In this document: piece after piece, positions 2,736 to 22,900 of the stretch
Layout: each line of letters opens with the position of its first letter
Position numbering within the stretch: position 1 is the stretch's first letter
DNA from: Candidatus Krumholzibacteriia bacterium
Lineage (GTDB): Bacteria; Krumholzibacteriota; Krumholzibacteriia; LZORAL124-64-63
Assembly (NCBI GenBank): GCA_024762975.1
Contig: JANTGJ010000011.1
Span: 1 to 46,005, forward strand
Length of the DNA: 46,005 bases
Direction: 5' to 3'
Program-made: the position numbers and the translations under genes
The notes under the pieces: model-generated
Told to the model about the DNA's origin: nothing
What the model saw: the letters and a program-made list of their open reading frames with translations, nothing else
Databases searched by the model: none

Positions 2736-5060
2736 TTACAAGAGTCCGTTTCGCCGTCGCAGGAACCACTCTACCCCCAGCAACAGACAGGCCACCAGCA
2801 GCAGGGGCCAGCCGGCCAAGGGATCGAACCGGGACCGCCGCTCCTGCGAACCCTGATCCCAGTCCAACGCCCTGAGGTGCTCCATGACCCGTTCCAGGAC
2901 ACGGTCCGCATTTCCGTCGACATACCGATCCTGGGAACCGGACGCCAGGCTCCGCAATCGCCGTTGGTCCTGCCGTACCTGGGTCGCCTCGATGGAGTTG
3001 CGGGTGACGACCAGACTTTCGCGTTGGCTGACCACCGGGGGCTGCCCTTCGCCGTTCAATTGCACCGAATAGGCCCCGGGAGGCAATGCCGGCAAGACCA
3101 CTTCCGCTTCGCCCGGACGGCCCTCGATCTCCTCCAAGTCGAAAGTTCGCACTTCGGCCTCGCCGGACTCCTCCGGATCGGAAGTGGACCTCAGCAGCAG
3201 CTCCAGCCGCCGCCCGGTCACCGGCTGTCCGCGCAGATCGCGCCAGTTCGAGGAGATCCGGATCGTTTCCCCCTCCTGATAGGCCAAGCGGCGCCCGGCA
3301 AAGGACAGCTCCTTCTCCGTGGAACCTTCGGCGGTCCAGATCAACAGGTTGCGTACCAACTGCCGCGCAATCTGGGGCTCGGTTCCGGAACGGCCCGCCA
3401 CCTCCGCCGGATTCCAGAATGCCTGTTCCCACAGATTCCGACCGCCATACCAACCGACCCGCCCTTGACCCCGTCCCGTTACCGCGAGCAAGGGATCGAT
3501 CCGCACCGGTTGCCCCGGGAGAGAACGTCCCCGGACCTCGATCAGGCTGCGACCGTCAGCAACCAGTACCGCCGGCACCAGAGCGCGCAGTGGCGGCAAT
3601 TCAGCCCAACTCCGGACCGGAAGGCCCTCGGCCGGGTTGGCCAGACCCGCCAGGATCAAATGGGACCGGCCCGACGGCGTCACGATGATCGCCCACGGCT
3701 CGGCAGCCGCTACCAGCCATCGAGTCTCCGGTATCCGAACCGGCAGCAGATCGGCCAGCCCTGCGGGCGGTGGGGCCAACGGCTGCGACGGCAGCGTAGA
3801 TCCATCACCTGGAATCACCAGCAGCCCCAGCCCCGCAGCAACGGCATCGCCCAGGAGTTTCCAATCCAGCGCCGCCACCGGCCCGCCCCAGCCGGACAGG
3901 ATCAACCCGTCCCAGCGCAACCATTCCTCGACGCTCGCAGGCGGTGACCACTGTACCAGACTGTCTGCAAAAACGGGGCCCTCAGGACCGGAAAACACCC
4001 GCGTCAAATCCAGACGAGGTTCGCGGGCAGCCCCCTGCGCCAGGAAACGAACATCCCAACCCGGTCGATCCGTCAGCAGGACCACCTCGGCACGTTCCGG
4101 GCGCACGTCTACCGCCAGCAACGCCTCGTTGTTCTCCAGGAAACGCTCGTTGTCCAGAGGCGAGACTTCGACACGATACACTTGCGGCCCGCTGGAATCC
4201 GGCCGGAAGACCAATTCGACAGGTACGGTTGCCGCGTCGGCTGGAACCGTTTGGCGGGCCACCACGCCCTCGGGTCCGAACAAACGAACCTCGATCGGCG
4301 GGCGGGTGCCGCGTTCGACAAAACGGTCATCGACGGTCAACTCGACCAACATATCAGCCCCCCGGTACACGGTACCCGGGTAGCGCAGATCCTTGATGAT
4401 CCGGTCGGCCGGTCCGCGGGGATCGCCCAAGCCCACGGCGACCAGTGGAGTCGCCGCCGGCGCCCCCAGGCCGCCCGTTCGGGATGACCGGGCGCTCGAA
4501 CTTTCGGTCTCCTGTCCATCGCTCAACAGGAGAATTCCGCGCACGGAACGATCCACGGCCGCCTCGAACGACTGCCGCAGGAATGACCGCAGATCCGTAC
4601 CATATCCGTCGGGAGCCGCACCCATCGCCTGGTCGGCTGCCACCTCCTGCAACGGGCCAAGCCCATTGCCGCGAAACATCAGAGCGCGGGAGTGGGGAAA
4701 TTCAGCGGTCAGGGCGGAATCGACTCGGGCAGCCAGCGTCCAGGCCTGGTGCCAACGCGAGACGGTGCTGTCATCGACCGCCGCTGCCGCCGGCAATTCC
4801 ATGCTGCCGGAATCCTCAACCAGGATGAGCAGATCCGCCGGTTTCCGGTCCTGCGCCAACCGGGTCAGCACCGGACCGGCGATGGCCAGGACCAACAGCG
4901 CCAGCACCGCCGACCGCAGTCCGATCAGCCAGCGCTTCAGCCCGGGACGCGGTTGCGGCCAGGTCTGTCGATAGAATCGCACCGACAAAGAGACGGCCCC
5001 CACCGCCAAAGCCAGCAGTAGGGGCCAGGTCCACGCCGGAGCTGTCCAGAAGATGGACAC
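2736..5060 (-). CDS. Membrane-anchored VWA-domain protein (BatA-like)
   Basis: 774 residues, starting with GTG at 5060-5058, six bases after the ppdK stop. Two membrane helices open the protein (about 10-28 and 45-66), as in BatA-type proteins, and another closes it (about 748-768, WPLLLVACLLLGVEWFLRRR). A von Willebrand A domain follows the second helix: ILVEDSGSM at 79-87 is the MIDAS loop and GILLLSDGQE is a later VWA strand. The first MIDAS position, normally Asp (DxSxS), is Glu here. The long middle part contains a segment resembling the glutamine-amidotransferase-like fold found in large VWA membrane proteins, and several Ig-like beta stretches. Its role is unknown, perhaps a surface sensor or complex-assembly factor. 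The start codon is uncertain because the Shine-Dalgarno is weak. Confidence 0.7.
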   Translation of the reverse strand: MSIFWTAPAWTWPLLLALAVGAVSLSVRFYRQTWPQPRPGLKRWLIGLRSAVLALLVLAIAGPVLTRLAQDRKPADLLILVEDSGSMELPAAAAVDDSTVSRWHQAWTLAARVDSALTAEFPHSRALMFRGNGLGPLQEVAADQAMGAAPDGYGTDLRSFLRQSFEAAVDRSVRGILLLSDGQETESSSARSSRTGGLGAPAATPLVAVGLGDPRGPADRIIKDLRYPGTVYRGADMLVELTVDDRFVERGTRPPIEVRLFGPEGVVARQTVPADAATVPVELVFRPDSSGPQVYRVEVSPLDNERFLENNEALLAVDVRPERAEVVLLTDRPGWDVRFLAQGAAREPRLDLTRVFSGPEGPVFADSLVQWSPPASVEEWLRWDGLILSGWGGPVAALDWKLLGDAVAAGLGLLVIPGDGSTLPSQPLAPPPAGLADLLPVRIPETRWLVAAAEPWAIIVTPSGRSHLILAGLANPAEGLPVRSWAELPPLRALVPAVLVADGRSLIEVRGRSLPGQPVRIDPLLAVTGRGQGRVGWYGGRNLWEQAFWNPAEVAGRSGTEPQIARQLVRNLLIWTAEGSTEKELSFAGRRLAYQEGETIRISSNWRDLRGQPVTGRRLELLLRSTSDPEESGEAEVRTFDLEEIEGRPGEAEVVLPALPPGAYSVQLNGEGQPPVVSQRESLVVTRNSIEATQVRQDQRRLRSLASGSQDRYVDGNADRVLERVMEHLRALDWDQGSQERRSRFDPLAGWPLLLVACLLLGVEWFLRRRNGLL

Positions 5061-5066
5061 CCGGTA

Positions 5067-7760
5067 TTACTTTCCGCCCTCGAGCTTCTCGCGCACGACC
5101 ACCTGGGCCGCAGCCAGACGCGCAATCGGCACCCGGTAGGGAGAGCAGCTGACGTAGTCCAGTCCCACCTTGTGGCAGAACGCGACCGAGCTGGGATCGC
5201 CCCCGTGCTCGCCGCAAATCCCCAGGTGGATGTCCGGGTTCGTCTCGCGCCCCTTCTTGCAGGCCATTTCGACCAGCTGGCCGACGCCACTTTGATCCAG
5301 CTGCTGGAACGGATCGGCCGGCAGGATGCCCCGACGTACGTAATCGGGCAGGAACACACCCGCGTCGTCGCGGCTGTATCCGAAGGTCATCTGCGTCAGA
5401 TCGTTGGTTCCGAAGCTGAAGAAGTCGGCGACCTCGGCCATCTGGTCCGCGAGCAGGGCCGCGCGCGGAATTTCGATCATGGTTCCCACCAGATAGTCGA
5501 CATCAACGCCCGTCTCGGCGATGACCTTCGTGGCCACCTCGATGGTCAGTTCCCGCAGATCGGCCAACTCACGCTGGGTACCGGTCAACGGAATCATGAT
5601 CTCCGGACGTACGTCCACGCCGCCCTTCTTGCAGGCACAAGCCGCACCGATGATCGCCGAGACCTGCATCTCGCAGATCTCCGGATAGGTCAGGCTGAGT
5701 CGGCAGCCCCGATGACCGAGCATCGGATTTTCCTCGTGCAGCGATTCGATCTTCTGCTCGAGCCGTTCCACCGCGACCCCCATGTCACCGGCGAGCGTCT
5801 TGATATCGCCCTCCGTGGTCGGCAGGAACTCGTGCAGCGGCGGATCCAACAGGCGGATCGTCACGGGCAGACTTTCCATCGCGCGGAAGATCCCGTCGAA
5901 GTCCTCCTGCTGCATCGGCTGCAACTTGGTCAGGGCCTCACGACGAGCCTCGACACTGTCGGCCAGGATCATCTCACGCATGCGCATGATGCGCTCTTCG
6001 CCGAAGAACATATGCTCGGTACGGCACAGGCCGATGCCCTGGGCACCGAACTCGCGCGCCTGCTGCGCATCGTGAGGACTGTCCGCATTCGTACGGACCC
6101 TCAGGCGACGCGTCTGATCGGCCCAGCCCATGACCTTGACCAGGTTGGGATCGTCCATGTGCGGGGGAACCAGGCCCGGCAGGCCCTCGATGACAGCCCC
6201 CGTCGTGCCGTTGATCGTGATCGCATCACCGCGAGCAAAAGACTTGTCGCCGATCTCAATCCGGCCGTTTTCGTTGTCCACAATCAATTCGCCACAGCCG
6301 GCGACACAGGGCTTGCCCATGCCCCGGGCCACGACGGCGGCGTGGCTGGTCATACCGCCGCGACTGGTCAGGATGCCCTGCGCGACATTCATACCGGCGA
6401 TGTCCTCGGGGCTGGTCTCACGGCGCACCAGGACCACCTTCGTCCCGTCACCGGCCACTTCGACGGCTTCCTCGGCGCTGAAGACGATCGTCCCCTGGGC
6501 CGCGCCCGGCGAGGCAGGCAGGCCCGTGGTCAGTACCTTCAGTTCCGCCGACGGGTCGATCTGGTCGTGCAGCATCTGATCCAGGTGATCGGGCTCGACC
6601 AGCAGCAGTGCTTTCTCGGTCGAGACGATGCCTTCGGCCTCCATCTCGGCGGCAACGCGAATGGCCGCGACTCCCGTCCGTTTGCCGTTGCGCGTCTGCA
6701 GCATCCACAGACGGCCATCCTCGATGGTGAACTCGATGTCCTGCATATCACAGTAGTGCTTTTCCAACTGCGTGCGGATTGCGCAGAGTTCGCTGTAGGA
6801 TTCGGGCATGACATCCTCGAGCGTGGGCAAATCCTTGGCCTTGTTTCCGGCCGGTAGCATCTCGCGGCCGTGCTGATTCAACTGCTGCGGCGTACGGATA
6901 CCTGCCACGACGTCCTCGCCCTGGGCGTTGACCAGGAACTCGCCGTAGAATTCGTTCTCTCCCGTCGACGGATTGCGCGTAAAAGCGACACCCGTTGCGG
7001 AGGAGTCCCCCATATTGCCGAAGACCATGGCCTGCACATTCACGGCAGTTCCCCAGTCACCGGGGATGTGGTGGATACGACGGTACTCGATCGCGCGCGG
7101 GACGTTCCAGCTCTTGAACACGGCGGCTACGCCCCCCCACAGCTGCTCGTAGGGATCGGAAGGGAATCCGGCACCGGTTTCATCGAGGATGATCGCCTTG
7201 AAATTCGCGATCAATTCCTTGAGATGATCCGGGGTCAGTTCGTTATCCAGGCTGACACCGGTCTTTTCCTTGATCGCGTCGATCGCGTGTTCGAATTTTT
7301 CGCCCTCGACGCCCATCACCACATCACCGTACATCTGCACCAAACGGCGGTAGCTGTCGTAGGCAAAACGCTCGTTACCACTCTTGGCTGCCAGCCCGAG
7401 CACGGTATCGTCATTCAACCCCAGGTTCAACACGGTGTCCATCATGCCCGGCATCGAGACCCGGGCACCGGAACGAACTGAGAAGAGCAGCGGATCGGCT
7501 GGATCGGCAAACGTCTTTCCGATCACCTTTTCGACCTGCAGCAGGGCTTCCTTCGCCTCGTTCTTCAGCGCATCAGTCAGCTCCTGTGTCGACTGGTACT
7601 CGATACATGCCTCGGTGCTGATCGTAAATCCCGGGGGCACGGGAATACCCAAGTTCACCATTTCAGCCAGGTTGGCGCCCTTGCCGCCCAGGAGGTTCCG
7701 CATCGATCCATTGCCGGCAGCGTGTCCGTCGCCGAAAAAGTAAACCTGCTTGCCGCTCAT
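5067..7760 (-). CDS. ppdK: Pyruvate, phosphate dikinase
   Basis: 897 residues. It interconverts pyruvate, ATP and phosphate with PEP, AMP and pyrophosphate, in the cytoplasm. The N-terminal ATP-grasp domain starts VYFFGDG and GGKGANLAEM. The swivelling phosphohistidine domain carries SRGGMTSHAAVVARG, with catalytic His473 and the usual regulatory Thr471. The C-terminal PEP/pyruvate barrel shows GLCRTEHMF, SFGTNDLTQMTFGYSRDD and GICGEHGGDP with the conserved Cys. Length fits the family (about 870-900). The ATG at 7760-7758 was chosen because MSGKQVYFFGDG matches the family start and GGAG lies 6 bases upstream; an in-frame extension of 57 codons is leader sequence. It probably has its own promoter in 7761-7902, just after the terminator of the gene upstream. 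It may serve gluconeogenic or pyrophosphate-linked glycolytic flux. Confidence 0.97.
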   Translation of the reverse strand: MSGKQVYFFGDGHAAGNGSMRNLLGGKGANLAEMVNLGIPVPPGFTISTEACIEYQSTQELTDALKNEAKEALLQVEKVIGKTFADPADPLLFSVRSGARVSMPGMMDTVLNLGLNDDTVLGLAAKSGNERFAYDSYRRLVQMYGDVVMGVEGEKFEHAIDAIKEKTGVSLDNELTPDHLKELIANFKAIILDETGAGFPSDPYEQLWGGVAAVFKSWNVPRAIEYRRIHHIPGDWGTAVNVQAMVFGNMGDSSATGVAFTRNPSTGENEFYGEFLVNAQGEDVVAGIRTPQQLNQHGREMLPAGNKAKDLPTLEDVMPESYSELCAIRTQLEKHYCDMQDIEFTIEDGRLWMLQTRNGKRTGVAAIRVAAEMEAEGIVSTEKALLLVEPDHLDQMLHDQIDPSAELKVLTTGLPASPGAAQGTIVFSAEEAVEVAGDGTKVVLVRRETSPEDIAGMNVAQGILTSRGGMTSHAAVVARGMGKPCVAGCGELIVDNENGRIEIGDKSFARGDAITINGTTGAVIEGLPGLVPPHMDDPNLVKVMGWADQTRRLRVRTNADSPHDAQQAREFGAQGIGLCRTEHMFFGEERIMRMREMILADSVEARREALTKLQPMQQEDFDGIFRAMESLPVTIRLLDPPLHEFLPTTEGDIKTLAGDMGVAVERLEQKIESLHEENPMLGHRGCRLSLTYPEICEMQVSAIIGAACACKKGGVDVRPEIMIPLTGTQRELADLRELTIEVATKVIAETGVDVDYLVGTMIEIPRAALLADQMAEVADFFSFGTNDLTQMTFGYSRDDAGVFLPDYVRRGILPADPFQQLDQSGVGQLVEMACKKGRETNPDIHLGICGEHGGDPSSVAFCHKVGLDYVSCSPYRVPIARLAAAQVVVREKLEGGK

Positions 7761-7902: not shown

Positions 7903-7934
7903 TAAAAAAGGGGTGAAAAACGTGTTTTCACCCC
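7903..7934 (-). terminator. Intrinsic terminator of the lipoprotein/BNR operon
   Basis: A perfect 10-bp stem, ggggtgaaaa (7910-7919) with ttttcacccc (7925-7934), has a 5-base loop. On the minus strand it is followed at once by CTTTTTTATA. It lies 25 bases after the stop of the BNR-repeat gene and separates that transcript from ppdK. Confidence 0.9.
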
Positions 7935-7958
7935 CCATATGATCGGTCCTGCGGGAAG

Positions 7959-10919
7959 CTAGCGGATGATCACCAGCTTGCCCCAGAAGTCGTCCCGCTG
8001 CGGCATCAGCACCTTGTAGAGGAATACTCCGCCCGTCAGCTCCTTGCCCTTTTCATTGTGGCAATCCCAGTGGATATTGCCTTCGACCTGTAGCTCACTG
8101 CCCAGCTCGATGACCTTGTCCCCGGCAGCGGTGAAGATCTGGATCGTCGATTCCGGCGGCAGGTTGGTAAAGACCACCTTCTGCCCCTCGAAATCGCGGA
8201 AACCCTCCCCCGGACGCAACGGGTTGGGATAAACATAGATTTCCTCATCGGCACCCGTCGCCGGAGCCGCCAACAGGTTTACCTGATAGGATCGGGTATT
8301 GCCTCCGCCCGGGAATGGTGAGGCCGTATCTCCCTCCCAACGAGGGGAAAAGACCATCGCCTGCGAATTGTTCTGCGGAGTCGTCAGCGCGGTCGACCCA
8401 TAGTCGAAGCTCGTCACGCCATAGTAGTACTCGAAGCCGTTGTAGATCTCGTCGTCGAAAAAGCGCACCGTATCGGGAGTCGAAAAATCGAAGCAGGCCG
8501 ATCGCTTCGAAATAAAGCACTGCGGCGTCACATCGTAGGATTCATCACCGCAGAATCCCTCGATACAGGACTCGGGGTTGACGCGATCGTACAGGCCAAG
8601 CAGCGTCAGACCCTCGCGGTCCACGCCGGTCGCCCGCCAAACCGCCCACCCCTGAAACGTCTGGCATTTCAGGTACAGCGAATCCGCAGGCGTGGCCGCG
8701 CCCGCAGTGAACGCAATCGAAAGACCCAGGTCCAGCACATCTCTGAGGCCCACATCCGTGGAGGAATTGTAGGTCTGTGTCAGATCCAGCGGTGTGCCCG
8801 GCACATAGATGCCTCCACCCCAGGTGCCGACCAGCAGATCGCCCGAACCGTCGGCAGCCATACGGCCCACCAGGGCCCGGTCCATGACCGGTTGGGAGGC
8901 GAAATGATCCCAGTTTACTCCGTTGTCCGTCGATGCCAGCAGGGACCATTTGTCTTCGACCGCATAGAACGTGCCGGGATTATCATCGTCGGAGATCAGC
9001 TGAATCGAGACCAACGATCCCAGGTTGGACGGCTGAACGGTGCCGGCCACATTCTCCCCCGCGACTTCGGCCCAGGTCTCGCCGCCGTCGCCGGTGCGAT
9101 AGATTCCCTCCTGCTGGAGCGCCAGAAGAATCACCTGGGGGTCCAGCGGATCCACGGCAACGGACAAGCCGTTGTGCACCCAGGCTCCATCGATCTCGTC
9201 GGAAGCCTGAATCAAATCGCCCCGGACCGGATGCCAGGTGTAGCCCCCGTCATCGCTCTCGATCAGGCCATGAAAGTTCACGGCGGCCAGCAGATGGTCC
9301 GGGTTGGACGGGTTCTCAACAATCTGGTTGACCAGTGGCAACTGTTTGAACTCGAGATAGTTGTAGATACGCGAATGGACATCGAACGAAACTCCCGCCG
9401 GGAATCCGGCGGTGAGTGTGAACGAACCAACGTAGCCGGCATCACACTGAGGAGGCATCTCGACGGTTCCGAAACCATTGTCGGCCAGATCGCAGAGTTC
9501 GCTCAGCGCTTCATCTCCCAGAGTGAAGCGGGTCGTGCCCGTCGAATTGCTGTGAATGCCCTGGAAGGGGCCCCGGAGAGCACCGTCGATCTCGACCCGG
9601 TAATTCACATCGAAGTAACCTTCCGCGCGGAATTTTCCGTCCGGCTGCCGGGTCAATGTGATTTGGCCGGGACTGGCCAGACCGAGGCTGTCGCCGGCGG
9701 TAATCCGGAACAGCTCGAAGTCGGAATCACCGACCAGCTGGCTGTCCAGCATCATCAACTGTGCAGCGAAAGTCTGCACGTCGTCGCCCGCGGTCCGGGC
9801 GGCGGTATGGAACTCCCACAGTACGTCCATCGAGAGCGTTCGTTCGTAGCCGTCCAGTTCGCCCGCCGCGGTGTCACTGCCGGACAGCTGCACATCGACC
9901 GTCCCGCGCATCCGGACCATCTCGTCCCCCAACACTCCGCCCGGGGTGATCCGGGCGCGCGGCGCGTCCAAATCCCGGACGACTTCGATATCCTGCCGGC
10001 TAAAGGTCGCGCCGGAATCCTCCGAGACGAACAGCCCGTAGTAGGGAACGAAGATCAACATCCGCGTCGGCGTCCAGATCAGACTATTGACCGGATAAAT
10101 GGTCGGCATCTGTTCCAGATCCTGCGGCAGACGGTTGAGCAGGCTGACAAACGTGGCGCCGCCATCGGTCGTCAGGAACGGGCCGTCCCTTTCCGTACCG
10201 ACGACGAAGCTGCTGGCCGATGCCGGCGAGAAGGCGACGGCGCTTACGGCCGTATTGTCGTCGAAGATCTCCGGCGCCAATTGCGACCACGAGCCCTCAC
10301 GGAAAATCCACAGTCCCGCCGGAGAAGTCGAGGTGGTCGGGCCCGTCGAAAAACCAGCCACCATCGTGCCGTCGTCGGCCTCATCCAGGGCCAGAATATT
10401 CGTCTGTGGCCAGGTCATCGGCAGGCCCACATTCAACTGGCCCCACGAACCAGCCATCTGGTCGAAGCGCCACAAGCCGCCGTTGTTGGCCAGATTCAGG
10501 GTGCCTCCCAGGCTGCCATAGTACGACGGTCCGTCACTGCGCCAACTGTAGACCAACGGATCCGGCTGCGCAGCTCCGATCGTACCGGCGGCACCGGATG
10601 TCGTGAAAAGGAAGGAACGATCCACGAGACCACCGTAACCACCCGTAACCGTCGCCTCGAATTCGGCACTATCGGTCGCCGTCAACGCAAAGCACGTCGA
10701 TTCCGCCAGATCCAGATCCGGCCAGCTGATGACCATCCCCTGCCGGCCCGAGCTCTGCAGCGACAGGTTGATCAGGTCGGGGGAAACCAGGTACAGGGAA
10801 TCGGCGAGGCACGCGGCATCTGGCGTAATTGCGCCCGCTCCGAACGCCGAAGCGAGAATCACGAGCCCCAGTGCCACTGCAATGACCGTCCGAACGGCCG
10901 ATACGCTCCCAGCCTTCAT
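7959..10919 (-). CDS. Large secreted BNR/Asp-box repeat protein with C-terminal sorting domain
   Basis: 986 residues with a signal peptide (about 1-30, cleavage near FGAGA). At least five Asp-box-like motifs are visible: LTTDGGATF, VSEDSGATF, ESDDGGYTW, RTGDGGETW and ASTDNGVNW. These predict a beta-propeller of the sialidase/BNR or Ycf48-like fold. Sialidase active-site residues were not found, so a non-enzymatic propeller is more likely. The last 90 residues hold YPNPLRPGEG, a strand-rich Ig-like segment (IQIFTAAGDKVIEL), HWDCHNEKGKEL and GGVFLYKVL, a FlgD-like type-IX-style sorting domain. The ATG at 10919 has AGGAG 4 bases upstream. It is the last gene of the transcript that starts with two paralogous lipoproteins, and a terminator follows. 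Probable role: a surface-exposed partner of those lipoproteins. Confidence 0.8.
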   Translation of the reverse strand: MKAGSVSAVRTVIAVALGLVILASAFGAGAITPDAACLADSLYLVSPDLINLSLQSSGRQGMVISWPDLDLAESTCFALTATDSAEFEATVTGGYGGLVDRSFLFTTSGAAGTIGAAQPDPLVYSWRSDGPSYYGSLGGTLNLANNGGLWRFDQMAGSWGQLNVGLPMTWPQTNILALDEADDGTMVAGFSTGPTTSTSPAGLWIFREGSWSQLAPEIFDDNTAVSAVAFSPASASSFVVGTERDGPFLTTDGGATFVSLLNRLPQDLEQMPTIYPVNSLIWTPTRMLIFVPYYGLFVSEDSGATFSRQDIEVVRDLDAPRARITPGGVLGDEMVRMRGTVDVQLSGSDTAAGELDGYERTLSMDVLWEFHTAARTAGDDVQTFAAQLMMLDSQLVGDSDFELFRITAGDSLGLASPGQITLTRQPDGKFRAEGYFDVNYRVEIDGALRGPFQGIHSNSTGTTRFTLGDEALSELCDLADNGFGTVEMPPQCDAGYVGSFTLTAGFPAGVSFDVHSRIYNYLEFKQLPLVNQIVENPSNPDHLLAAVNFHGLIESDDGGYTWHPVRGDLIQASDEIDGAWVHNGLSVAVDPLDPQVILLALQQEGIYRTGDGGETWAEVAGENVAGTVQPSNLGSLVSIQLISDDDNPGTFYAVEDKWSLLASTDNGVNWDHFASQPVMDRALVGRMAADGSGDLLVGTWGGGIYVPGTPLDLTQTYNSSTDVGLRDVLDLGLSIAFTAGAATPADSLYLKCQTFQGWAVWRATGVDREGLTLLGLYDRVNPESCIEGFCGDESYDVTPQCFISKRSACFDFSTPDTVRFFDDEIYNGFEYYYGVTSFDYGSTALTTPQNNSQAMVFSPRWEGDTASPFPGGGNTRSYQVNLLAAPATGADEEIYVYPNPLRPGEGFRDFEGQKVVFTNLPPESTIQIFTAAGDKVIELGSELQVEGNIHWDCHNEKGKELTGGVFLYKVLMPQRDDFWGKLVIIR

Positions 10920-11028
10920 TCACTCCTGCCTTTCCTGACATTCGATCCCCGGCGGTTCATCGGACCGGGGTTGGTTCGTATCCGATACGGGAAGTTCGCG
11001 CCCCGGACCGAGCCGGGGTTCGATCCGC

Positions 11029-13476
11029 CTATTCCATTTCCAATCCGAAATATTCGAGTACCCACAGAATGGCCTTCTGGCTGTCCTGCTCATCGAATCG
11101 ATAGGGATCGAAACCCCAGTAGACATCCGGTTTTCCGCTGACCTTGTCGGCTACCATCTTGTACGATGCCCAGCCAAAGGTCTGCCCATTGGTCTTCGCA
11201 GTGGCCAGATCCAGGTCACCCAAAGAGGCCAGTGCGAACGGGCCACAGATATCGTCCCGCAGGTCGACATCGGTGTAGCGGCTGAACGGCCAACTGGTTT
11301 CTCCCTCGGACCAGCGAATCTCCCGCAACCAGTCGTAGCGAGAGATACCTCGGTACATCGGCTCGACGCACTTGCCCCCCGGACCCAGTTCGCAATCCTG
11401 GGGTAACACCTGGGACAGCCGGGTACCACTGATGTTCGCGTCGACAAATTCGTCGTTCTGGAACGGGAACTGACTCGATTGCAAGGCCAGCGCACCGGAC
11501 TGACGGTCCCTCACATCATGCCAATCGATGATCGGATTGGTCGAGATCGTATCGGCCAGCACCCCGGGTCCGATCAGATGCTGCGCCTTGAAAGCCGGGT
11601 CCAGGTAGATCGACTTCAGGCCTGCGCATTCCGCCGCGCGGTCGGCCTCCATCTTGCGGGTTCGCCCATAAATGGTCTTCCGCCCGGTGGCAGTCCAATC
11701 CAGCGCCGCGATCCCGGCCGTAGTGTAGTGGTACATCAACGGACCGCGCGGCACACTCGTTCCGTCCGGCAACTCCTTGTTCGAGAAACTGGCCTCATAT
11801 CCGTTCAGATTCGGCTCCCGGGTATCGAACACGGTCGGGACATAGTAGTTGTCCTTGTCCTCGATGAACGAATCCAGACTCGAGGCGCCGACCAGGAAGA
11901 GGTTGCCTCCCTGGCGCTGGTACGGGGTCAGGTAGACGAATCGATCCACGTTGCCCATCGCCCGGAAGTCGCCCAGGAAGTACTGCTCGGTATGGAAGCG
12001 GGCAAAAACAAGCAAGGCCTTGTAGTGCACGATATCCTCATAGTCGAGGAACTGCGCGTCCACATGGTCGACGAAATTATTGGCCCAGGTAAAGTCGGCA
12101 ACCTCGCCTTCCAGGAAATCCCAGTAATCGTTGCGATAGACCTCGCTGTCCCGCGCATTCCCCAGTTCGTCCTGCCAACGGCCCGTATTGTCGTCGACGA
12201 CCTGATCGATCAACAGCAGAGGCGCCTGGTCGTCGTAGGGAACGAACGGAATCACATCGAGCGTCCACTTGTAGATCACTTCGGTGCCGGAATCATCGAC
12301 CACTTTCAGATAGAAGTAGTTCAGACCACCGGCAGCGAAGGAGCGTTCTTCCGCGAAAGTGTTCTGTTCCGACAAACCGGGACCGATGGCCCATCCCGGA
12401 TCGGTGATCACGTCCACGGAGCCGACATTCCAGCCGTGCTGGTACGATACGATCGAACCATTGTAGCTGTCCGCCTTGGCAGTCCACCTGAAGTTCAGCG
12501 GCTGGCCCGCAGCAATCTGATTCGCGGGGTACTGATTCGGCGCCTCATCCAGGAATTCCTCGGTCAGTGTAATTTCGGGCGAATAGGCCACGGACGAGAC
12601 TTTCAGGTTCGCGACTTCACGTTGGTAGTCCTTGCCGATACTGACCGCGCCGGCCGTGTCCTGTACCTGGACCGCGAAGAGCCATATGGACTGGTCTTCC
12701 AGGTTCTTGAACGTTGCGCGACGCTCCACCTCGAGATCCTTGTACTCGATCCACTCCGACCAGCGGGGATCATAGAAATCGATCAACTCGTCCCGATATT
12801 GGTTATACACGCTTCGAACCTGGATCGGAGCTCCACTCGGCGTTTCCGCCACGACCCGCAGAAAACGGGCGCGTACCGGAATATTCAATTCGAAATCCGG
12901 ATCCGTTCCTTCCCAGCCGATATTCAGCGTGGTGGGAACCGTTTTCGCCGAGGTGCCGCCCAGGTTCGGGAAGGTCGCGTTGCACTCGGGCAACAGGGTG
13001 GTCGAAGTGAAGCTCAGATGCGCCGGAGTTGGGTCGACCGAGCCCTTGTCGTCGACCGCGCGCACGAAAATCGTGTGTGTTCGGAAACTGCGCGGGTCGC
13101 CTGCCGGGTCACCCGGGAAGCCGGCCTGATCAGCCAGCACATAGAAGATCGAATCGTTCGCCGTCGTATAGCGCCAGGGATTGACCACCGCACCGGAAAT
13201 CGGATCGATCGTCATCGTATCGCGCGGACTGATACCGTCTGTGCCATTGTTGCTGATCTTCCACTGGAAGCCGGCGATACGTCCGTCGACATCGGAGCCG
13301 GTCCAGTTGAATTGGCAAACGAACCCCGCCTCGAGCAACGAGGGCGGCTGTCCCGTAATCCGGGTCTCCGGCCGACTATTGGGCACACGCACGCCGCCCA
13401 GATCGCTCTCGGTCGAACAACCCGCAGCCACGGCCAACAGGGCGGCCAGGGAAAGTACGGTGAAACGCCTGATCAT
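11029..13476 (-). CDS. Large lipoprotein, paralogue of the upstream gene
   Basis: 815 residues from the ATG at 13476, which has GAGGAG about 8 bases upstream; a longer frame without a ribosome site is rejected. The start is a lipoprotein signal peptide (MIRRFTVLSLAALLAVAAGC, Cys20 as lipid anchor). Residues from about 33 on (RPETRITGQPP, FNWTGSDVDGRIAGFQW, AVDDKGSVDPTPAHLSF) match the same region of the 800-residue lipoprotein just upstream, so the two are diverged tandem duplicates. Around residues 430-560 (APLLLIDQVVDD, DYEDIVHYKALLVFARF, GGNLFLVGASS) the protein resembles the glutamine-amidotransferase-like fold, a feature the sequence does not prove. No catalytic motif was recognised. Probable role: an outer-membrane-attached surface protein. 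Confidence 0.75.
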   Translation of the reverse strand: MIRRFTVLSLAALLAVAAGCSTESDLGGVRVPNSRPETRITGQPPSLLEAGFVCQFNWTGSDVDGRIAGFQWKISNNGTDGISPRDTMTIDPISGAVVNPWRYTTANDSIFYVLADQAGFPGDPAGDPRSFRTHTIFVRAVDDKGSVDPTPAHLSFTSTTLLPECNATFPNLGGTSAKTVPTTLNIGWEGTDPDFELNIPVRARFLRVVAETPSGAPIQVRSVYNQYRDELIDFYDPRWSEWIEYKDLEVERRATFKNLEDQSIWLFAVQVQDTAGAVSIGKDYQREVANLKVSSVAYSPEITLTEEFLDEAPNQYPANQIAAGQPLNFRWTAKADSYNGSIVSYQHGWNVGSVDVITDPGWAIGPGLSEQNTFAEERSFAAGGLNYFYLKVVDDSGTEVIYKWTLDVIPFVPYDDQAPLLLIDQVVDDNTGRWQDELGNARDSEVYRNDYWDFLEGEVADFTWANNFVDHVDAQFLDYEDIVHYKALLVFARFHTEQYFLGDFRAMGNVDRFVYLTPYQRQGGNLFLVGASSLDSFIEDKDNYYVPTVFDTREPNLNGYEASFSNKELPDGTSVPRGPLMYHYTTAGIAALDWTATGRKTIYGRTRKMEADRAAECAGLKSIYLDPAFKAQHLIGPGVLADTISTNPIIDWHDVRDRQSGALALQSSQFPFQNDEFVDANISGTRLSQVLPQDCELGPGGKCVEPMYRGISRYDWLREIRWSEGETSWPFSRYTDVDLRDDICGPFALASLGDLDLATAKTNGQTFGWASYKMVADKVSGKPDVYWGFDPYRFDEQDSQKAILWVLEYFGLEME

Positions 13477-13504
13477 CGACTCACTCCTCGAAGCTTTTGG
13501 TCGC

Positions 13505-15907
13505 CTAAAATCCATCACCAATGCACTCGACATCTTCGCCGGCCCCGGATCCTGCCTGGACGACGATCTTGAAGTACTGCATCACCGGCTCATTGTTATT
13601 GCTGGCCATTGCCATCTGCGGCAAGGGAATCGAACCATCGACCACGATGCCGGGCCCACTCATGGTACAGGCACGCCAGGTACTGCCTCCCGGCGGGGTC
13701 GCGGCCGGCGGACGCATGCCCTGGAACGTATGGTAGAATCCGGGCCGAAGCGGGGTAGTCAAGCACTGGGTCTGGTCCAGGGCCACGCCCTGGATCCGGC
13801 CCTCGCCGAATTGACGCGTGGTCAGCGCGAAGAGCTCATCCACTCGCGGATCATCCGGATTGTACGGACTGATGAAATCCCAGACGTGGTTCAGATAGAG
13901 TCGCTGCCGGTAGGTCGCGACACCGGAATTGACCAGGTCCTCCGGGACATACACCCGGACCAGCTTTTTCCACAGGCCTGTCGTCGTGATCTTCAGGCCA
14001 TCGCCGTCGGACTCACCCCAGTTCTCGACATCGATATTGTCCGAACCGCCACCGTCCTGGATGACGTTATCCGGGTCGCAGTCGTAGTCGATCTGCGTCT
14101 TCCAGGCCATCGTCCGCCACCGGGACTGGCCCGCCTCGGTATATCGCTCATCCACGTGATCCTGTCCATGAAAGAGCACGTCCATGCCAAATACCGCACA
14201 CTTGACCAGGTGCTTGGAGACCCCCAGTCCTGCCGTATCGACCTCGAAGCTCACAAAGTCGGTGACCTTGTCGATGGCCATGAAAGCGGCCTCCGGCAAC
14301 TGCGTCAGGTAATGACGACCGGCCAGCGAGTCACCCGTTGTCCTGACGAACATTTCCGCAGGCGCACCGAAGCACGGGTGCGACGCGCCGGCGCTCGGAT
14401 CATAGCAGGCCAGGGAAGCATCGAAGGCTGAAGTGCCGCCCTTCGGCAGAACCTCGATGCACTGCACGCAGGGCGGGTTGCCGACTTCGAAGGAAATCGA
14501 GGCCGGCGAGCCATCCCGGCGTCCGAATTCGTCGACCGCCTGCAGACTGACCGTCATCTCCGAACGGGGGGCCACCAGTACGCCCAAGGTGTCGGCGTAC
14601 CATCCGTCCAACCCCTCGCCCCATTCCGGCTCGGTGTCCAGATCGCTGGCGGAAGTCCGGAAGCTGTAGCGCCCCCCGGTATAGTTCTCGATTTCACCCT
14701 CGGCAAAACCCGTGAACCCCATTCCGAAGCTGGAATCCAAGGGAACGTCGAGGCGGTTGTCCCTCCCCAGAGCCTTGAACACCACGTAGGATCGATCAGG
14801 TACCCGATCGCCCGATCCGAACGCATGCGGAATTCGCAATGGATCGTTCAGCAGCACGTAATACGGATAGGTCTGGCTATCCTCCGGGTGCGCGAAATCC
14901 AACTCGTTGTCCAGGATGTAGGTGTCCGGATCGTAGTTTACCACGAACGTGAATTCGCGCAAATAATCCGCAACTTCGACACCGGCAACATCGATCGAGT
15001 TGACCTGCAGGTTGACCGTGCCGGGATCCAGCAGTCGGCGGAATGGCGAGGTGCCACTGCCGTCATTGTTGAAAACCAGGCGTGTAAAATCCCCAAAATA
15101 AGAGAAGGAGTCTGCGGACGCCTCATCGAACAGGCGGGGACTCCAGCAGTCATCGAGCGTCGGTTGGCAGTCCCCACCGAGCTCGCCCCCGAGTCGCCAT
15201 TTGTAACCGAAGAGGCCGTCATCGTACGGATAAACGGTATCGATCTTGGCCAGCGCGGTCAGATCGTAGCCACGGATATTCGGCGTCGAGCCTTTCCAGA
15301 AGACCTCGTACCGTTTATTGAAGCCCACCGTATCCACATACCCGAGAGCAACCTGGGCGGTATCCACGCGCACAGAGCCCCCGTCCAACACTTCTTTGAT
15401 TCGGAAGAACTGGATCTGGGGATTGCCCAGGGTGTTGCTGAAGAAGTGCAAGCGGGCCGGTGTACGGTCGAAATCGCCGAAGTCATCCTGAGCCACCATA
15501 TGCAGCGTCATATCGTAGGACGTGCCAACTCCCTGATTGATCGTGAAATCGAAAATCGAATCGGTCTTCGTGGTCCAGTGTCCGATCTCGAGCTGGCTGG
15601 CATCGAGGGCCGGGTTGAAATTCTCGTCCTCTTCATCCTCGACCGTATCCTCATCCTGCAACGTGGTATCGGTCAGCGCCCAGACGAAGCGCTCCACCGT
15701 TCCATCACGATCCGATCCGTACCAGAAAACATGGAAGTGATAGTAACCGCCTCCATGCTCCATGGGAGAACCGATGATATAGGTCTCGGGCATTTGATTG
15801 ACGACGACGGCCTCCGGTTCGAAGGCACGGCATCCGCCAAGAGCCAACAGGGTCAGGAGGATCGCCAAGACGAAGAACCCCGCACGGGGGGAAAGCCTGG
15901 TTTTCAT
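13505..15907 (-). CDS. Large lipoprotein, first gene of the lipoprotein/BNR operon
   Basis: 800 residues with a lipoprotein signal (AILLTLLALGGC, Cys26 lipidated). Residues 38-150 (NQMPETYIIGSP, FWYGSDRDGTVERFVWAL, AQDDFGDFDRTPARLHF) are clearly related to the next gene, with matching order and spacing of conserved W, GSD, DG and TPA positions. An acidic insert (QDEDTVEDEEDEN, about 84-96) could bind divalent cations. The remaining Ig-like, strand-rich sequence has no recognised enzymatic signature, and the C-terminal third differs from that of the paralogue. The stop is 28 bases before the next start. A well-placed sigma70-type promoter lies about 160 bases upstream. No family name can be given. 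Confidence 0.75.
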   Translation of the reverse strand: MKTRLSPRAGFFVLAILLTLLALGGCRAFEPEAVVVNQMPETYIIGSPMEHGGGYYHFHVFWYGSDRDGTVERFVWALTDTTLQDEDTVEDEEDENFNPALDASQLEIGHWTTKTDSIFDFTINQGVGTSYDMTLHMVAQDDFGDFDRTPARLHFFSNTLGNPQIQFFRIKEVLDGGSVRVDTAQVALGYVDTVGFNKRYEVFWKGSTPNIRGYDLTALAKIDTVYPYDDGLFGYKWRLGGELGGDCQPTLDDCWSPRLFDEASADSFSYFGDFTRLVFNNDGSGTSPFRRLLDPGTVNLQVNSIDVAGVEVADYLREFTFVVNYDPDTYILDNELDFAHPEDSQTYPYYVLLNDPLRIPHAFGSGDRVPDRSYVVFKALGRDNRLDVPLDSSFGMGFTGFAEGEIENYTGGRYSFRTSASDLDTEPEWGEGLDGWYADTLGVLVAPRSEMTVSLQAVDEFGRRDGSPASISFEVGNPPCVQCIEVLPKGGTSAFDASLACYDPSAGASHPCFGAPAEMFVRTTGDSLAGRHYLTQLPEAAFMAIDKVTDFVSFEVDTAGLGVSKHLVKCAVFGMDVLFHGQDHVDERYTEAGQSRWRTMAWKTQIDYDCDPDNVIQDGGGSDNIDVENWGESDGDGLKITTTGLWKKLVRVYVPEDLVNSGVATYRQRLYLNHVWDFISPYNPDDPRVDELFALTTRQFGEGRIQGVALDQTQCLTTPLRPGFYHTFQGMRPPAATPPGGSTWRACTMSGPGIVVDGSIPLPQMAMASNNNEPVMQYFKIVVQAGSGAGEDVECIGDGF

Positions 15908-16065
15908 GCTCGTACGTGCTCCCTCGGAAGCTGGTCGCGACTACTGGACTAGGCATCGTCGAGGTGGGACCGACGATGATCGACCGTGCGGAATCCGCGC
16001 AATCCCCGCCTAGGTAAAAAACGGGTGGGGATTCCTCGCGGAAAAACTCGGATTTCTTGTTTTGA
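15908..16065 (-). other. Structured 5-prime leader of the lipoprotein/BNR operon
   Basis: No gene is seen in this stretch. With the promoter at 16066-16095 the transcript would start near 16059 and carry a leader of about 150 bases. It contains an inverted repeat, aatcccc (16001-16007) with ggggatt (16027-16033), and a smaller palindrome gcggaatccgc near 15987-15999. Their role is unknown; they could stabilise the messenger or be regulatory. The remainder of the intergenic space (16096-16199) shows nothing else. Confidence 0.45.
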
Positions 16066-16095
16066 AATATAGGGATTCGCCTTGCACGGTGTCAA
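16066..16095 (-). promoter_or_regulatory. Sigma70-type promoter of the lipoprotein/BNR operon
   Basis: Read on the minus strand: TTGACA (16095-16090), an 18-base spacer, then TATATT (16071-16066). The -35 is perfect and the -10 matches at five of six positions. It lies in the only gap before the first lipoprotein gene, beyond the terminator of the gene upstream. Confidence 0.75.
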
Positions 16096-16262: not shown

Positions 16263-19200
16263 TTACTTCACCAGAGCCATCTTGTTGACAACAACACTGT
16301 CATCGGTGCGTGCTTCGTAGAAGTACACGCCGGAGGAGACAGCCTTGCCCTGCTCGTTGGTTCCGTCCCACATGATGTGGCCAGACTCGGTCCGGACCTC
16401 ATCGATCAGGGTCTTCACCAACTCGCCGCGCACGTTGTAGACCTTCAGGCTCAGGTGCCCAGCCTTGGGCATCGTGAACTCGATCTTCGTGCTCGGGTTG
16501 AAGGGGTTCGGGTAGTTGCTGGCCGCGAACTTCGCGCCCGGCAGACCCGCCGGCGTAGCCTGGAAGTCCTGCGAAGGGACACCGAAGCTAAGCAGGACTT
16601 CGCGCAACACTTCCGCACGGGCCGGCAGAGCGGCAGGCTGATTCACCTTGGCGCCACTGTTAGCAGTGCGGATATAGCGGAAGTCGTACGGCATGGTGAT
16701 GACCTGGGAAGTGTTCACGGCCACGAACTTCGTAGCGGCAGACAGACCCGAGGCGCCATCGTTGAATTCGGCCAGCATTTCGCCACCGGCAGCGGTCACG
16801 GCGTCGAAAGTGTTGATGCCACGGCAACCGCCGTAAGCGATCCAGCTACCGGTGGTATTGAACACCGAGTTGCCGGCAACCGAGTAGACCATCGGAGCGG
16901 TGTCGCCACCCAGCAGCGGGCGAGCGTCGTTGCTCTGGAAAGTCAGACCCATCCAGGCGTTGACGAACGCCTGCGTCGTGGTGCCACCGTTGACCCACAT
17001 ATCGCTGACGAGATCATCACCGGTCGCGAACATCTTCTTGCCACCCTGGCTCAACCAGTCACTCACAACGCCAACATCGTCACCGGCGTCGTTCTCGTAG
17101 TCCAGGTTCGAGATCGTGTTCACGCTCAGGTCTCCAGCCGTGTAGATCATGGTGTCATAACCATACAGCTGACCCAACGCGGCGCGGCCACCGAGGCCAT
17201 TACTGACACCGGAGGACGGAGCATTGGTGTAGTAGATGTCATAGTCGGCACCCGGGAAGAATCCCAGGTTGGCGAAGGCGCCATGCCACTCGTCCTGGCC
17301 GCCACGGTTGGCGAAATCGTTCCAGAACAGCATGGCCGGCTGCGCGCCGGTGTCGTCGGTCAGGGTCGGCAGAGCGCGGACCGTCATACCACTGGCATAG
17401 GCCAGCGGACCACTGAAGTCACCGTAACCGGTGATATCAGCAGGCATGGTCGCGTTCTGATAGTCGCCGGCAACATCGTCCCAGGCCTCGACGTACCAGT
17501 GCAGGACGTCACCCGGGTACAGGAAGTCGGCGTCCGGCAGATCGAACTGCCAGCGATCCGGGCTCTCGATGCCGTTGCCACGGGCCTTGGCACCCTGGAC
17601 GTAACCGGTCATCAGACCACCGGCGGACGTCAGGATCTCACCATTCAGCACGGACAGAGGATCATCGGAATCGGTCGTGAACGCACCAACGGGCAGACGC
17701 ATAGCGGCGGTGAACGCCGGGTTCATCTGAACCGTGAAGTACATCCGCGGAGCGGTCACGGTCGCGTCCACGTCGGTCTCGACCAGCGCAGCGCCGGTAC
17801 GAACAGCGACGATATCGAACACAACCGAGTCACCGGGATCGTTGCGCAGATCGGTGGCCAGAGCAATGTTGTTGGCCATGTCGAAACGCACGTCGTTCTG
17901 ATCCATTTCGACACCCACGTGGATCTGACCGTCAGCCGGGAAGGCATCCTGGGCCAGGTCCAGCTCACGGGCGCTCATGCCCGGGCCGAAGTAGTCGTAG
18001 CAGATCAGGCTGACATTGTCGAAGTACGGAGCAGGATAGCCGTCATCGCCGGCCCAGCCCCAGATGTACCCCAACTCGTAGACGGCCATCTGGACCTGAA
18101 CTTGTGCACGATCAGCAACAACCAGGTCAGTGGCGTCGGCTTCGCCGGCGCGGATATAATCCGGGCCGCCGTAGTACACGAAGTTACGATCCTGGTAGCC
18201 GGCTTCCGTGATGTCGTCGCCGGTAATCGCCGAGCGGATACCCCAGGTATAGAAGATACCCGGTGCGTTCGAGGACAGATCCTCGTGACGATAGGCGTCA
18301 AACAGGAAGCGCACGCCGAGATAGTCACCGGCCGGCCAATCGATCACAGGGGACTCGATGGCGTTGTGCAGGTGAGATTCGGGGCCGGCGAATCCACCCT
18401 GAGTGGTCACAATGTAACCACCGGGGCCGTAGCACCAGTCCTGGCAGAAAGCAACCGGGTTGCCATTCACAGCCATGATGTCATCAGCGATGAAGCAGGC
18501 CTGCGGGCTGTAGTTGCTGTTACAGGGATCTTCGTCACCCAGCTGGCTGCGGATGTGAGCATAGTCACCAACGCCGACCGGGAATTCCACGACCCACTCA
18601 CCGTAGCCCGACAGGGCCAGGGGCAGACCGTCTTCGAAGTCATCGCTGAACGTCTGAACGACACCATCATTGGTGACGGTCACGGTGACGTCATCGACCT
18701 GCGTCGCGCCGTCGCCATAGTACGAGCAATCGCTGTCATCCCAGCCACCATCGGAGGTGCTGTGCCAGACAACAGCAATCTCGTTACCCAGGTCACCGAC
18801 GTACTCGCCAGCGTTGTAGGTCACGGAACCGGTTACGGGGACGAGCTCGCCCTCGCCGTCAGCGGTCCACAGGTAGGCGATCGACTGATCAGCCTTGTAA
18901 TAACCCAGGTTCGAGAAGTCATAACCGGGCTCGGTGTTGTGATTCACCGTGGCGGTAACGTCAACCGTCGTGCTGGCAGCGGTATTTCCAACAGCCGCAC
19001 GCAGAACCATGAGCTCGTTGTAGCTGGAGCCATAGCCACCCACGGCGTCCAACTCAGTACAAGCATCATAGGTGATCGAGCCACACCAGGCAGCATAGGT
19101 GCCGCTGGGGACGTTGTAAGTATCAACGTGCCAGAGAGCGTCGACTTTCTGAGTCAGATCAACGCTGGTCCAGCCATTCCAGTTCGGGGCGCCGGAGGCA

Positions 19201-19409
19201 TCCTCGAACTCACCATTCTCAACAGCACCCGAGCCCCAGGGGCCGATCAGGTACACGGTATCACGGGAAGCAGCCTTGGACATCTCCAGATTGCCACCAT
19301 GAATGACGCTATTGTGCCCATCAACGTACTTCGGCATCTCGCCGGCAGTAGCGCCGAAAGCGAACACGAACGCCACCAACAAACAAGCGAACGTAGTGAA
19401 TCTCTTCAT
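16263..19409 (-). CDS. Abundant-type secreted surface protein with canonical type-IX-like sorting domain
   Basis: 1048 residues. The signal peptide (MKRFTTFACLLVAFVFAFGATAG) is followed by long beta-rich sequence with many Asp and Tyr. A region at about 705-830 (MLFWNDFANRGG, YGYDTMIYTAGDLS, WLSQGGKKMFATGDD) resembles the glutamine-amidotransferase-like fold without a catalytic Cys. The C-terminal 85 residues are a textbook sorting domain: YPNPFNPSTKIEF, LKVYNVRGELVKTL, MWDGTNEQGKAVSSGVYFY and the final MALVK. The gene stands alone between a strong promoter with a long leader and a strong terminator. It contains no TTA, CTA or TCA codons over nearly its whole length, and its 5-prime part has more NNT codons (GCT, GGT, GTT) than its neighbours, hinting at high expression. 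No enzyme motif was found; the role may be structural or adhesive. Confidence 0.8.
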   Translation of the reverse strand: MKRFTTFACLLVAFVFAFGATAGEMPKYVDGHNSVIHGGNLEMSKAASRDTVYLIGPWGSGAVENGEFEDASGAPNWNGWTSVDLTQKVDALWHVDTYNVPSGTYAAWCGSITYDACTELDAVGGYGSSYNELMVLRAAVGNTAASTTVDVTATVNHNTEPGYDFSNLGYYKADQSIAYLWTADGEGELVPVTGSVTYNAGEYVGDLGNEIAVVWHSTSDGGWDDSDCSYYGDGATQVDDVTVTVTNDGVVQTFSDDFEDGLPLALSGYGEWVVEFPVGVGDYAHIRSQLGDEDPCNSNYSPQACFIADDIMAVNGNPVAFCQDWCYGPGGYIVTTQGGFAGPESHLHNAIESPVIDWPAGDYLGVRFLFDAYRHEDLSSNAPGIFYTWGIRSAITGDDITEAGYQDRNFVYYGGPDYIRAGEADATDLVVADRAQVQVQMAVYELGYIWGWAGDDGYPAPYFDNVSLICYDYFGPGMSARELDLAQDAFPADGQIHVGVEMDQNDVRFDMANNIALATDLRNDPGDSVVFDIVAVRTGAALVETDVDATVTAPRMYFTVQMNPAFTAAMRLPVGAFTTDSDDPLSVLNGEILTSAGGLMTGYVQGAKARGNGIESPDRWQFDLPDADFLYPGDVLHWYVEAWDDVAGDYQNATMPADITGYGDFSGPLAYASGMTVRALPTLTDDTGAQPAMLFWNDFANRGGQDEWHGAFANLGFFPGADYDIYYTNAPSSGVSNGLGGRAALGQLYGYDTMIYTAGDLSVNTISNLDYENDAGDDVGVVSDWLSQGGKKMFATGDDLVSDMWVNGGTTTQAFVNAWMGLTFQSNDARPLLGGDTAPMVYSVAGNSVFNTTGSWIAYGGCRGINTFDAVTAAGGEMLAEFNDGASGLSAATKFVAVNTSQVITMPYDFRYIRTANSGAKVNQPAALPARAEVLREVLLSFGVPSQDFQATPAGLPGAKFAASNYPNPFNPSTKIEFTMPKAGHLSLKVYNVRGELVKTLIDEVRTESGHIMWDGTNEQGKAVSSGVYFYEARTDDSVVVNKMALVK

Positions 19410-19830: not shown

Positions 19831-22017
19831 TCAATCCAGGGGGGCAACCTCCGCGAAATCAGCGTATCTCACAAAAACTCCATGAATTTCACGTAAGAAT
19901 CCGTGCCGGAGACGCTTCAATTTTTCGTCCTCCACGTTGACCCGGACCGTCTCGAAAAAGGCATCGATCGTCGGACCGAGGGCCGAGAGCAGGGCGAACA
20001 CGCGGTCGTAGTCCCCGGTCAGTTCGGCCTCCTTCAAGTCCACCGCCGAGGTTGCCACTGCCTCGGCGAGCTGCCGCTCGGCCGCTTCGGGCAGCGCCGT
20101 AAACGCATCGTTATCCGGTGTCGAACCGCCGCCGATCCACCGTTCCAGACACCGATCCAGCCCCTCGACCGGCAAAACCTGCCCTTCGAGAATATTGCGG
20201 CATCGCTTGAATCCGGTGGCCAGCATCTGGAAATCATCCCGTTCGCGATAGGTCTCCAGGGCACGGACCCAGGCCAGGGCGTCTACCGGTCGGCGCCACC
20301 GCACCGGCAAAACGGCCCGCCCGACCCGCGGATCGGTGCCCAGCTGATCGGTAAAAAACCCACTGACGCGCGTCAGCACGAATTCCCTCAACCCCTCCAG
20401 AACCTCTGTCCGATCCTTTTCCGGAGCCAAAGGCGATACGCCGTCCAGAGCACGGTCCAGGGCCGCTTCCAGGTCCAGATCCGATTCCAGATCGAGAAGA
20501 ATCCGCAAAACCGCCAGAACATGTCGGCGCAGCGCGTACGGATCTTTCGCACCGGTCGGCACGAATCCCGCCAGCCAGCAGCCGGCCACGGTATCGAGCC
20601 GCTCGGCCACCGATAGCGTCGAGCTGACCCGATCGCCGGGAAGTTCGCCCTGGGCACCGCGCGGCAACAGATAACGTTCCATGGCCCGGCAGACGGTATC
20701 CGGCTCTCCGGCCAGCGCCGCGTAGCGCGCACCGATCAAGCCTTCCAGCTTCGTGAATTCCTTGCCGTCCTTGATCATCTCGCTGACCAGATCGCTCTTG
20801 CAGATCCGGGCCGCCCGCGCCAGATCAGCCGGAACTTCTTCCGCGTCGCCCAGGCCCGAGCCCCACAGCCAGGGAACGAGCTTCTCCAGTCGTTCGACCT
20901 TGTCCAAAATCGTACCGAATCCTTCGATCCAGGTTACGGCGTCCAACAGGTCGGTGCGCTCGTCCGGCGTCTTTTTCTGGTCGAATTCCCAGTAGAACAG
21001 CGCGTCAGCCAATCGGGCGTGCAACACGCGCTCATTGCCGGCAACCACCTTTTCCAGGTGCTCGGAGCCCCCGTCGCGAACGGCCACGAAACAGGATTCC
21101 AGGCCACCACCGTCCCCCCGCTCGACCACGAAATACCGCTGATGCACCTTCAGAGCCGCGGCGATCACCTCCGGTGGCAATACCTGATAGGCATCGTCGA
21201 AGGACCCCAGGAAGGGCGTCGGGTGCTCGCACAGGAAGATCACCTCCGTCAGCAACTCCTCGTCGGCAAGCAACCGGGCGCCGGTGCCGCGTCCCTTCAG
21301 CAGCGAATCGAATCCCTGTTCGATCATTTCACGTCGCCGGGCCGGATCGGCCACGACCCCGGCCTCGGCCATGACACGATCGTAATCCTGGGGTTGCGCG
21401 ATCGAATACTCGCGATCCTGAACCAGGGTCCGGTGTCCCCGGGTGATCCGGCCTGCCTTCAGGTCACCCACCTGCACAGGCACGACGTCCGACCCCAGCA
21501 GGGCCACGAGCCATTGCAGCGGACGCGGGTATTCCAGATCGCTCTCGCCCCAGCGCATCACCTTGCGGAAGGGAATGGAAAGGATCAGTCCCGGCAGGGC
21601 TTCGGCGAGGATTTCACCCGTCGGTCGGCCTGGCTCGACTTTTTTCGCGACCAGAAATTCTCCCTTGGGGCCTTCCTGGCGGCCACAATCGTCCAGGGAA
21701 AGACCCACCTTGCGGGCAAACCCTGCCGCTGCGGGCGTCGGATTGCCGTCCGCGTCGAAGGCAACCGATACCGGCGGCCCCTTGATTTCCAGTCGGCGAT
21801 CCGCCTGGCGCAGATCCAGATCGTCCACGCGCAACGTCAGCCGTCGCGGAGTGGCCACGACATTCATCGCCTCCCAGGCCAGATGATGGTCCTGCAACAA
21901 CCGGGCAGCCCGGTCCTGCAATTCCTGCATGGCCGTGGGAATGAACCGGGCGGGAATCTCTTCGCTGCCGATTTCCAGCAGGAAGGAGGTCTTGTTCTGG
22001 TCCTGGGCCTGGCTCAT
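19831..22017 (-). CDS. glyS: Glycyl-tRNA synthetase, beta subunit
   Basis: 728 residues. It forms the alpha2-beta2 glycyl-tRNA synthetase with GlyQ; the beta chain binds the tRNA and helps the alpha chain charge it. The family start [14 protein letters not shown] is clear, the central HD-like region follows, and the C-terminal anticodon-binding (DALR-like) region ends the protein. The ATG at 22017-22015 overlaps the glyQ stop in an ATGA; an upstream in-frame extension lies inside glyQ and is rejected. Length is near the usual 690-720. It is the last gene of the long operon, directly before a terminator. Confidence 0.97.
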
Positions 22018-22895: not shown

Positions 22896-22900
22896 GGTCC

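Follow-up and report, generated by a model that had tools for sequence, protein, structure and literature searches.

A conserved operon encoding two undescribed families of predicted lipoproteins and a protein with a T9SS-like tail in the class Krumholzibacteriia

The window, by which we mean the whole 46,005-nucleotide stretch of DNA analysed here, is contig C11, from a genome 3.8 Mb in size. Read along the minus strand, glyQ, glyS and gene D are followed by a promoter, genes A, B and C, a terminator, ppdK and then two further genes. The features are:

19831–23129, minus strand: glyS and glyQ (glycyl-tRNA synthetase), the conserved boundary upstream
16263–19409, minus strand: gene D, a 1048-aa secreted protein with a T9SS type A sorting tail; conserved neighbour and member of a multi-copy family
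16066–16095, minus strand: promoter, with −35 TTGACA (16095–16090), an 18-nt spacer ending in AATCCC and −10 TATATT (16071–16066)
15954–15978, minus strand: candidate leader hairpin with CCCACC in its loop, about 60 nt 5′ of the A start codon
13505–15907, minus strand: gene A, an 800-aa predicted lipoprotein (lipobox LGGC, Cys26)
11029–13533, minus strand: gene B, a predicted lipoprotein (lipobox AAGC, Cys39 numbered from 13533)
7959–10919, minus strand: gene C, with a signal peptide, N-terminal beta domain, BNR/Asp-box propeller, FN3-like domain and T9SS-type C-terminal domain
9342–9941, minus strand: insert in the C propeller, a domain of about 200 residues
7908–7936, minus strand: intrinsic terminator, 3′ of C
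5067–7760, minus strand: ppdK (pyruvate phosphate dikinase), the conserved boundary downstream

As originally predicted, three genes, all on the minus strand, lie between promoter and terminator. The description of this operon as self-contained does not hold, since it left out D, the conserved T9SS-tail protein just upstream. Two genes beyond ppdK are also conserved. The one at 2736–5060 is without family matches; by eye its product resembles a membrane protein and seems to carry a VWA-type motif. The other, at 928–2679, encodes Lamin Tail Domains together with a FlgD_ig-type tail.

The promoter, A, B, C and the terminator form a conserved unit across the class Krumholzibacteriia. In a named genome collection, in which relatives of B are mostly labelled Candidatus Krumholzibacteriota or Krumholzibacteriia, the three genes follow one another directly, in the same order and on a single strand, in 28 of 47 loci (families f1 and f5); seven of the other 19 are orthologous and broken only by contig ends, and 12 hold paralogues or a partial protein. 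These relatives were recovered by a scan with the family alignment, a single-protein scan of the contigs having given none. The trio is also present, at 22–33% identity, in all nine fetched loci of families f2, f3, f4, f6 and f7 that have an A match. Its position is between glyQ-glyS-D and ppdK. The conservation as a trio that the original prediction had named as support is thus found in 28 f1/f5 loci and in nine more from five families.

Across 58 related genomes, B has a match in 56 and A in 54. One genome of the same genus (G001) has no match to either; because an orthologous ppdK match is absent from it too, the loss of a contig from the assembly would be the simpler explanation. Another genome (G047, family f6) has no recognisable A, despite several B-like genes and a C; in it, a run of four B-like genes and a C-like gene (L060:5151-16540) is located away from ppdK. 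Single and unlinked homologues, which had been named in advance as evidence against the proposed complex, do occur as paralogues (lone B at L055, L057, L095, L110 and L112; a lone extra A at L136), but the orthologous trio is never separated in any f1/f5 locus having enough contig.

The promoter deserves its original description as near-perfect. TTGACA-N18-TATATT at 16095–16066 matches the consensus at 11 of 12 positions, is the top site in the 15.5 kb scanned and, as an exact motif, has a single copy in the 3.8-Mb genome, the one before A. Identical hexamers with the same 18-nt spacing are found upstream of A in all 31 f1/f5 loci that hold the region, the window included; the three f1/f5 loci without a match had just 0–2 nt of upstream sequence. 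Across the 31 loci all 12 hexamer positions are invariant and an ATCCC just before the −10 element is nearly fixed, while conservation is about 46–50% in the flanks and over most of the spacer. The promoters of f2, f3, f4, f6 and f7 fit TTGAC[AT]-17/18-TAT[AC]TT, that is, they show small changes at most. No such fixed site was seen upstream of D, ppdK and the other genes compared. The exact motif being present only once in the genome, and the D and ppdK upstream regions lacking a fixed motif, we rejected the idea that this is simply the genome's ordinary consensus.

Relatives' genomes carry the exact motif up to three times each. Ten non-A copies, part of those listed in relatives, were inspected (f1 genomes; L151–L160), and all are just 5′ of a tRNA gene, tRNA-Thr as read from the anticodon. 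Most show more tRNAs, and a tuf (EF-Tu) reading frame is visible behind three of the ten. The motif can be read as a strong housekeeping promoter. Such an unusually constrained promoter hints at abundance of the products and offers an experimental handle.

The other end of the operon was also correctly identified: a 12-pair stem at 7908–7936 precedes a T-rich stretch and folds better than shuffles (z = −3.4), and 17 of 28 relatives have a terminator-like hairpin in the gap between C and ppdK. Within the leader, CCCACC lies about 60 nt before A in 21 loci, in 18 of them in the loop of a 6–9-pair stem. In an alignment of 17 sequences, 84.9% of the cells of this stem pair, five of its seven pairs show double-sided changes, and all slid controls pair less than the true register. 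The relatedness of the loci and the way sequences were chosen may account for some of the covariation, and we therefore hold the hairpin with its invariant CCCACC loop to be a good candidate rather than a proven element. A known RNA family was rejected for want of an Rfam match, and a widespread element was rejected because the next matches in the genome are weak (E 0.1). The leader, a candidate for a small regulatory RNA hairpin, could serve as a further experimental handle.

A and B are two undescribed protein families; in the window, neither has a match in Pfam or NCBIfam. Both have the signal of an outer-membrane lipoprotein, a signal peptide with a conserved lipobox Cys: Cys26 is invariant in 31 A proteins and, among 40 B proteins, 90% or more have Cys39, with a stricter lipobox pattern found in 21 of the 31 A rows and 28 of the 40 B rows. 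A and B are predicted to reside in the outer membrane, exposed at the surface. Met20 of B (position 13476) is invariant and is probably the true start, which would make the annotation 19 codons too long; the overlap of the A and B genes is accordingly a likely annotation artefact. The two had been taken for diverged tandem copies. This is correct for the N-terminal module, where BLAST aligns about 170 residues at 30% identity and profile comparison about 200 residues at 99% probability; neither method finds anything beyond, and full-length tandem duplication was rejected. What A and B have in common is just the lipobox and an N-terminal Ig-like module of about 200 residues. In fair AlphaFold models (pLDDT 81 for A and 85 for B), A is predicted to continue with further beta-sandwich domains, and B to consist of an Ig/FN3-like array with an alpha/beta C-terminal region. 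Foldseek searches with both models returned fold-level resemblance to Ig/FN3 arrays and nothing more. Some relatives of B match PKD domains weakly.

The host genome has a second cluster with D2, B2, a small tail-only protein (approximately a signal peptide plus sorting domain) and A2 in a row (L033:8384-14547). B2 and A2 are without the shared N-terminal module and without a lipobox. The same arrangement is found in G026, and in G021 the two are on separate contigs. Since both cores recur together in this second cluster, it supports the view that the A and B cores are functionally paired. A sorting-tail protein that by eye is C25 (gingipain-type) peptidase-like is encoded at L033:348-2804.

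C of families f1 and f5 combines an N-terminal beta domain with BNR-type propeller blades, and an FN3-like domain with a T9SS-type tail. In f2, f3, f4, f6 and f7 it is about 425–590 residues long and retains the N-terminal, FN3-like and tail parts only, the propeller part not being alignable. Because C of these five families is without that part, the propeller was gained or lost while the operon persisted, and it is not a conserved or defining part of C, contrary to the original prediction. The window C does have the predicted secreted propeller and a signal-peptide-like N terminus; its sorting domain fits less well, scoring below both generic sorting-tail models (TIGR04183 and PF18962), and TIGR04183 is matched, weakly, by seven of 19 C proteins. 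The window propeller itself contains the insert of about 200 residues, absent in 18 aligned relatives and 38–40% identical to a repeat that G001 and G016 carry in secreted tail proteins. In the tail proteins at L133:1460-3676 and L134:2476-4080, this unnamed domain of about 190–200 aa is present in two or three tandem copies. The nested domain insertions picture a surface protein that gains parts while its operon stays fixed.

By profile, C propellers match BNR/xyloglucanase-type families. Two identities for C were considered and rejected. The PorZ model is matched by every one of the 19 C proteins, at 9.5e-16 in the best case, and the C profile matches solved PorZ (5m11) at 8e-12. PorZ membership requires a full-length T9SS_PorZ match of more than 260 bits, a cut-off reached by no protein in 12 genomes; the match of the window C is confined to the tail (8.8e-10, 37.6 bits), and many unrelated tail proteins score like C on this model. 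Identity with an F510_1955/BNR glycosyl hydrolase fails on score, 61.6 bits against a curated cut-off of 175.

D is conserved beside the trio, and its sorting tail exceeds the cut-offs of TIGR04183 (26.6 bits versus 23) and PF18962 (27.1 versus 27). The D family is a multi-copy one of large T9SS-tail proteins, with eight matches in G001 at 59–67% over at least 580 residues. The SprA/Sov translocon model TIGR04189 is matched above its curated cut-off in 12 of 12 genomes tested, the host included, and in none of 14 controls. By the criterion of an SprA-like translocon homologue, the lineage can be predicted to possess a type IX system, and these are genomes outside Bacteroidota. A literature search with partial coverage returned no paper linking Krumholzibacteri- with type IX secretion.

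Codon bias is weak overall. D has the most ribosomal-protein-like codon usage among the genes compared, A and C are near the 91st percentile and B is at the 60th. The support for high expression is thus strong for D, weak for A and C and absent for B, and codon usage, being weak and mixed, was rejected as proof that the operon is highly expressed.

The reading we favour, at roughly even chances, is that lipoproteins A and B form a constitutive assembly at the cell surface together with T9SS-exported C, and that the genes make up a class-wide core operon of Krumholzibacteriia. The basis is the gene set and its order, the promoter, terminator and leader hairpin, the lipobox and T9SS-type tail signals, and the SprA-like protein; high expression, a location in the outer membrane and the contact of A/B with C are what we infer. 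The strong housekeeping-type promoter would transcribe A-B-C; A and B would be lipid-anchored in the outer membrane, each as a chain of Ig/FN3-like domains; the C-terminal domain of C would direct its export by the type IX system; and A and/or B would hold C at the surface, forming a lipid-anchored scaffold. The neighbour D, presumably abundant, may join this assembly. Counting against it are the lone A and B paralogues, the G047 genome without A, the mixed codon usage and the window C scoring below the sorting-tail models. A bolder version is tentative and unlikely: that this is a main, constitutively abundant surface structure of Krumholzibacteriota, made of the two undescribed lipoprotein families and T9SS partners, driven by a fixed promoter with hexamers of the tRNA-tuf type, with the CCCACC leader loop read by an RNA or protein after initiation. 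On the favoured reading, an uncultured and poorly known phylum would have a core operon for its surface, in which two of the protein families are undescribed.

The same genes could also encode three independent surface proteins, merely co-expressed, whose order reflects a stable glyQS-to-ppdK neighbourhood. The flanking housekeeping genes are indeed equally order-conserved, and both A and B have paralogues that stand alone and unlinked; however, the shared promoter and terminator are conserved while the flanks diverge, and the A and B cores are paired again in the second cluster. We consider this explanation unlikely. A shade less probable, in our judgement, is an accessory T9SS module, proposed by analogy with the Bacteroidota attachment complex of PorZ and its partners. 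C would then stay on the surface with an uncleaved tail and process or anchor other T9SS cargo, for instance D; A and B would be its lipoprotein partners. The matches of all 19 C proteins to the PorZ model (that of the window C through its C-terminal domain) and of the C profile to 5m11 speak for such a module, as do the near-universal operon set beside multi-copy D-type cargo and the fact that PorZ likewise joins propellers with a retained tail (PMC5121618). The failure of any protein in 12 genomes to reach the PorZ cut-off, the similar scores of many unrelated tail proteins, the BNR/xyloglucanase type of the propellers and their absence from C in five families speak against it.

Least probable among these alternatives is a glycan-binding or -degrading surface complex, in which A and B would tether the propeller, an enzyme or lectin related to xyloglucanases and BNR hydrolases. 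Oligoxyloglucan hydrolases are matched by the C profile at 1.7e-23 and the F510_1955 glycosyl hydrolase model is matched as well, but the hydrolase model is far below its cut-off and the match covers the repeat blades only. Moreover, the propeller has been dispensable over the history of the family, and adjoining recognised carbohydrate-uptake genes are absent.

The proposed surface assembly can be set beside several known systems. With PorZ (NF052228, PDB 5m11), the T9SS surface component of Porphyromonas gingivalis, C has in common the combination of propeller and T9SS-type C-terminal domain, with an alignable tail; it differs in that the match is mostly to the tail and far below the cut-off, the blades are BNR-type, and C of five families is without a propeller. 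The blades match by profile those of the BNR/Asp-box propellers of xyloglucanases (1sqj, 2ebs), Sortilin/Vps10 and Ycf48, whereas the window C is below all family cut-offs and has extra N-terminal, FN3-like and tail domains. As for T9SS type A cargo (TIGR04183/PF18962), D passes TIGR04183, an SprA-family protein is present and the C tail is a related beta domain, but one of a divergent PNPxR...IIR form that in the window misses TIGR04183. Finally, although the window A and B are without Pfam or NCBIfam matches and the similarity is at fold level only, their models are like the tandem FN3/Ig arrays of PKD/Ig-like and FN3 surface proteins, and some B proteins match PKD weakly.
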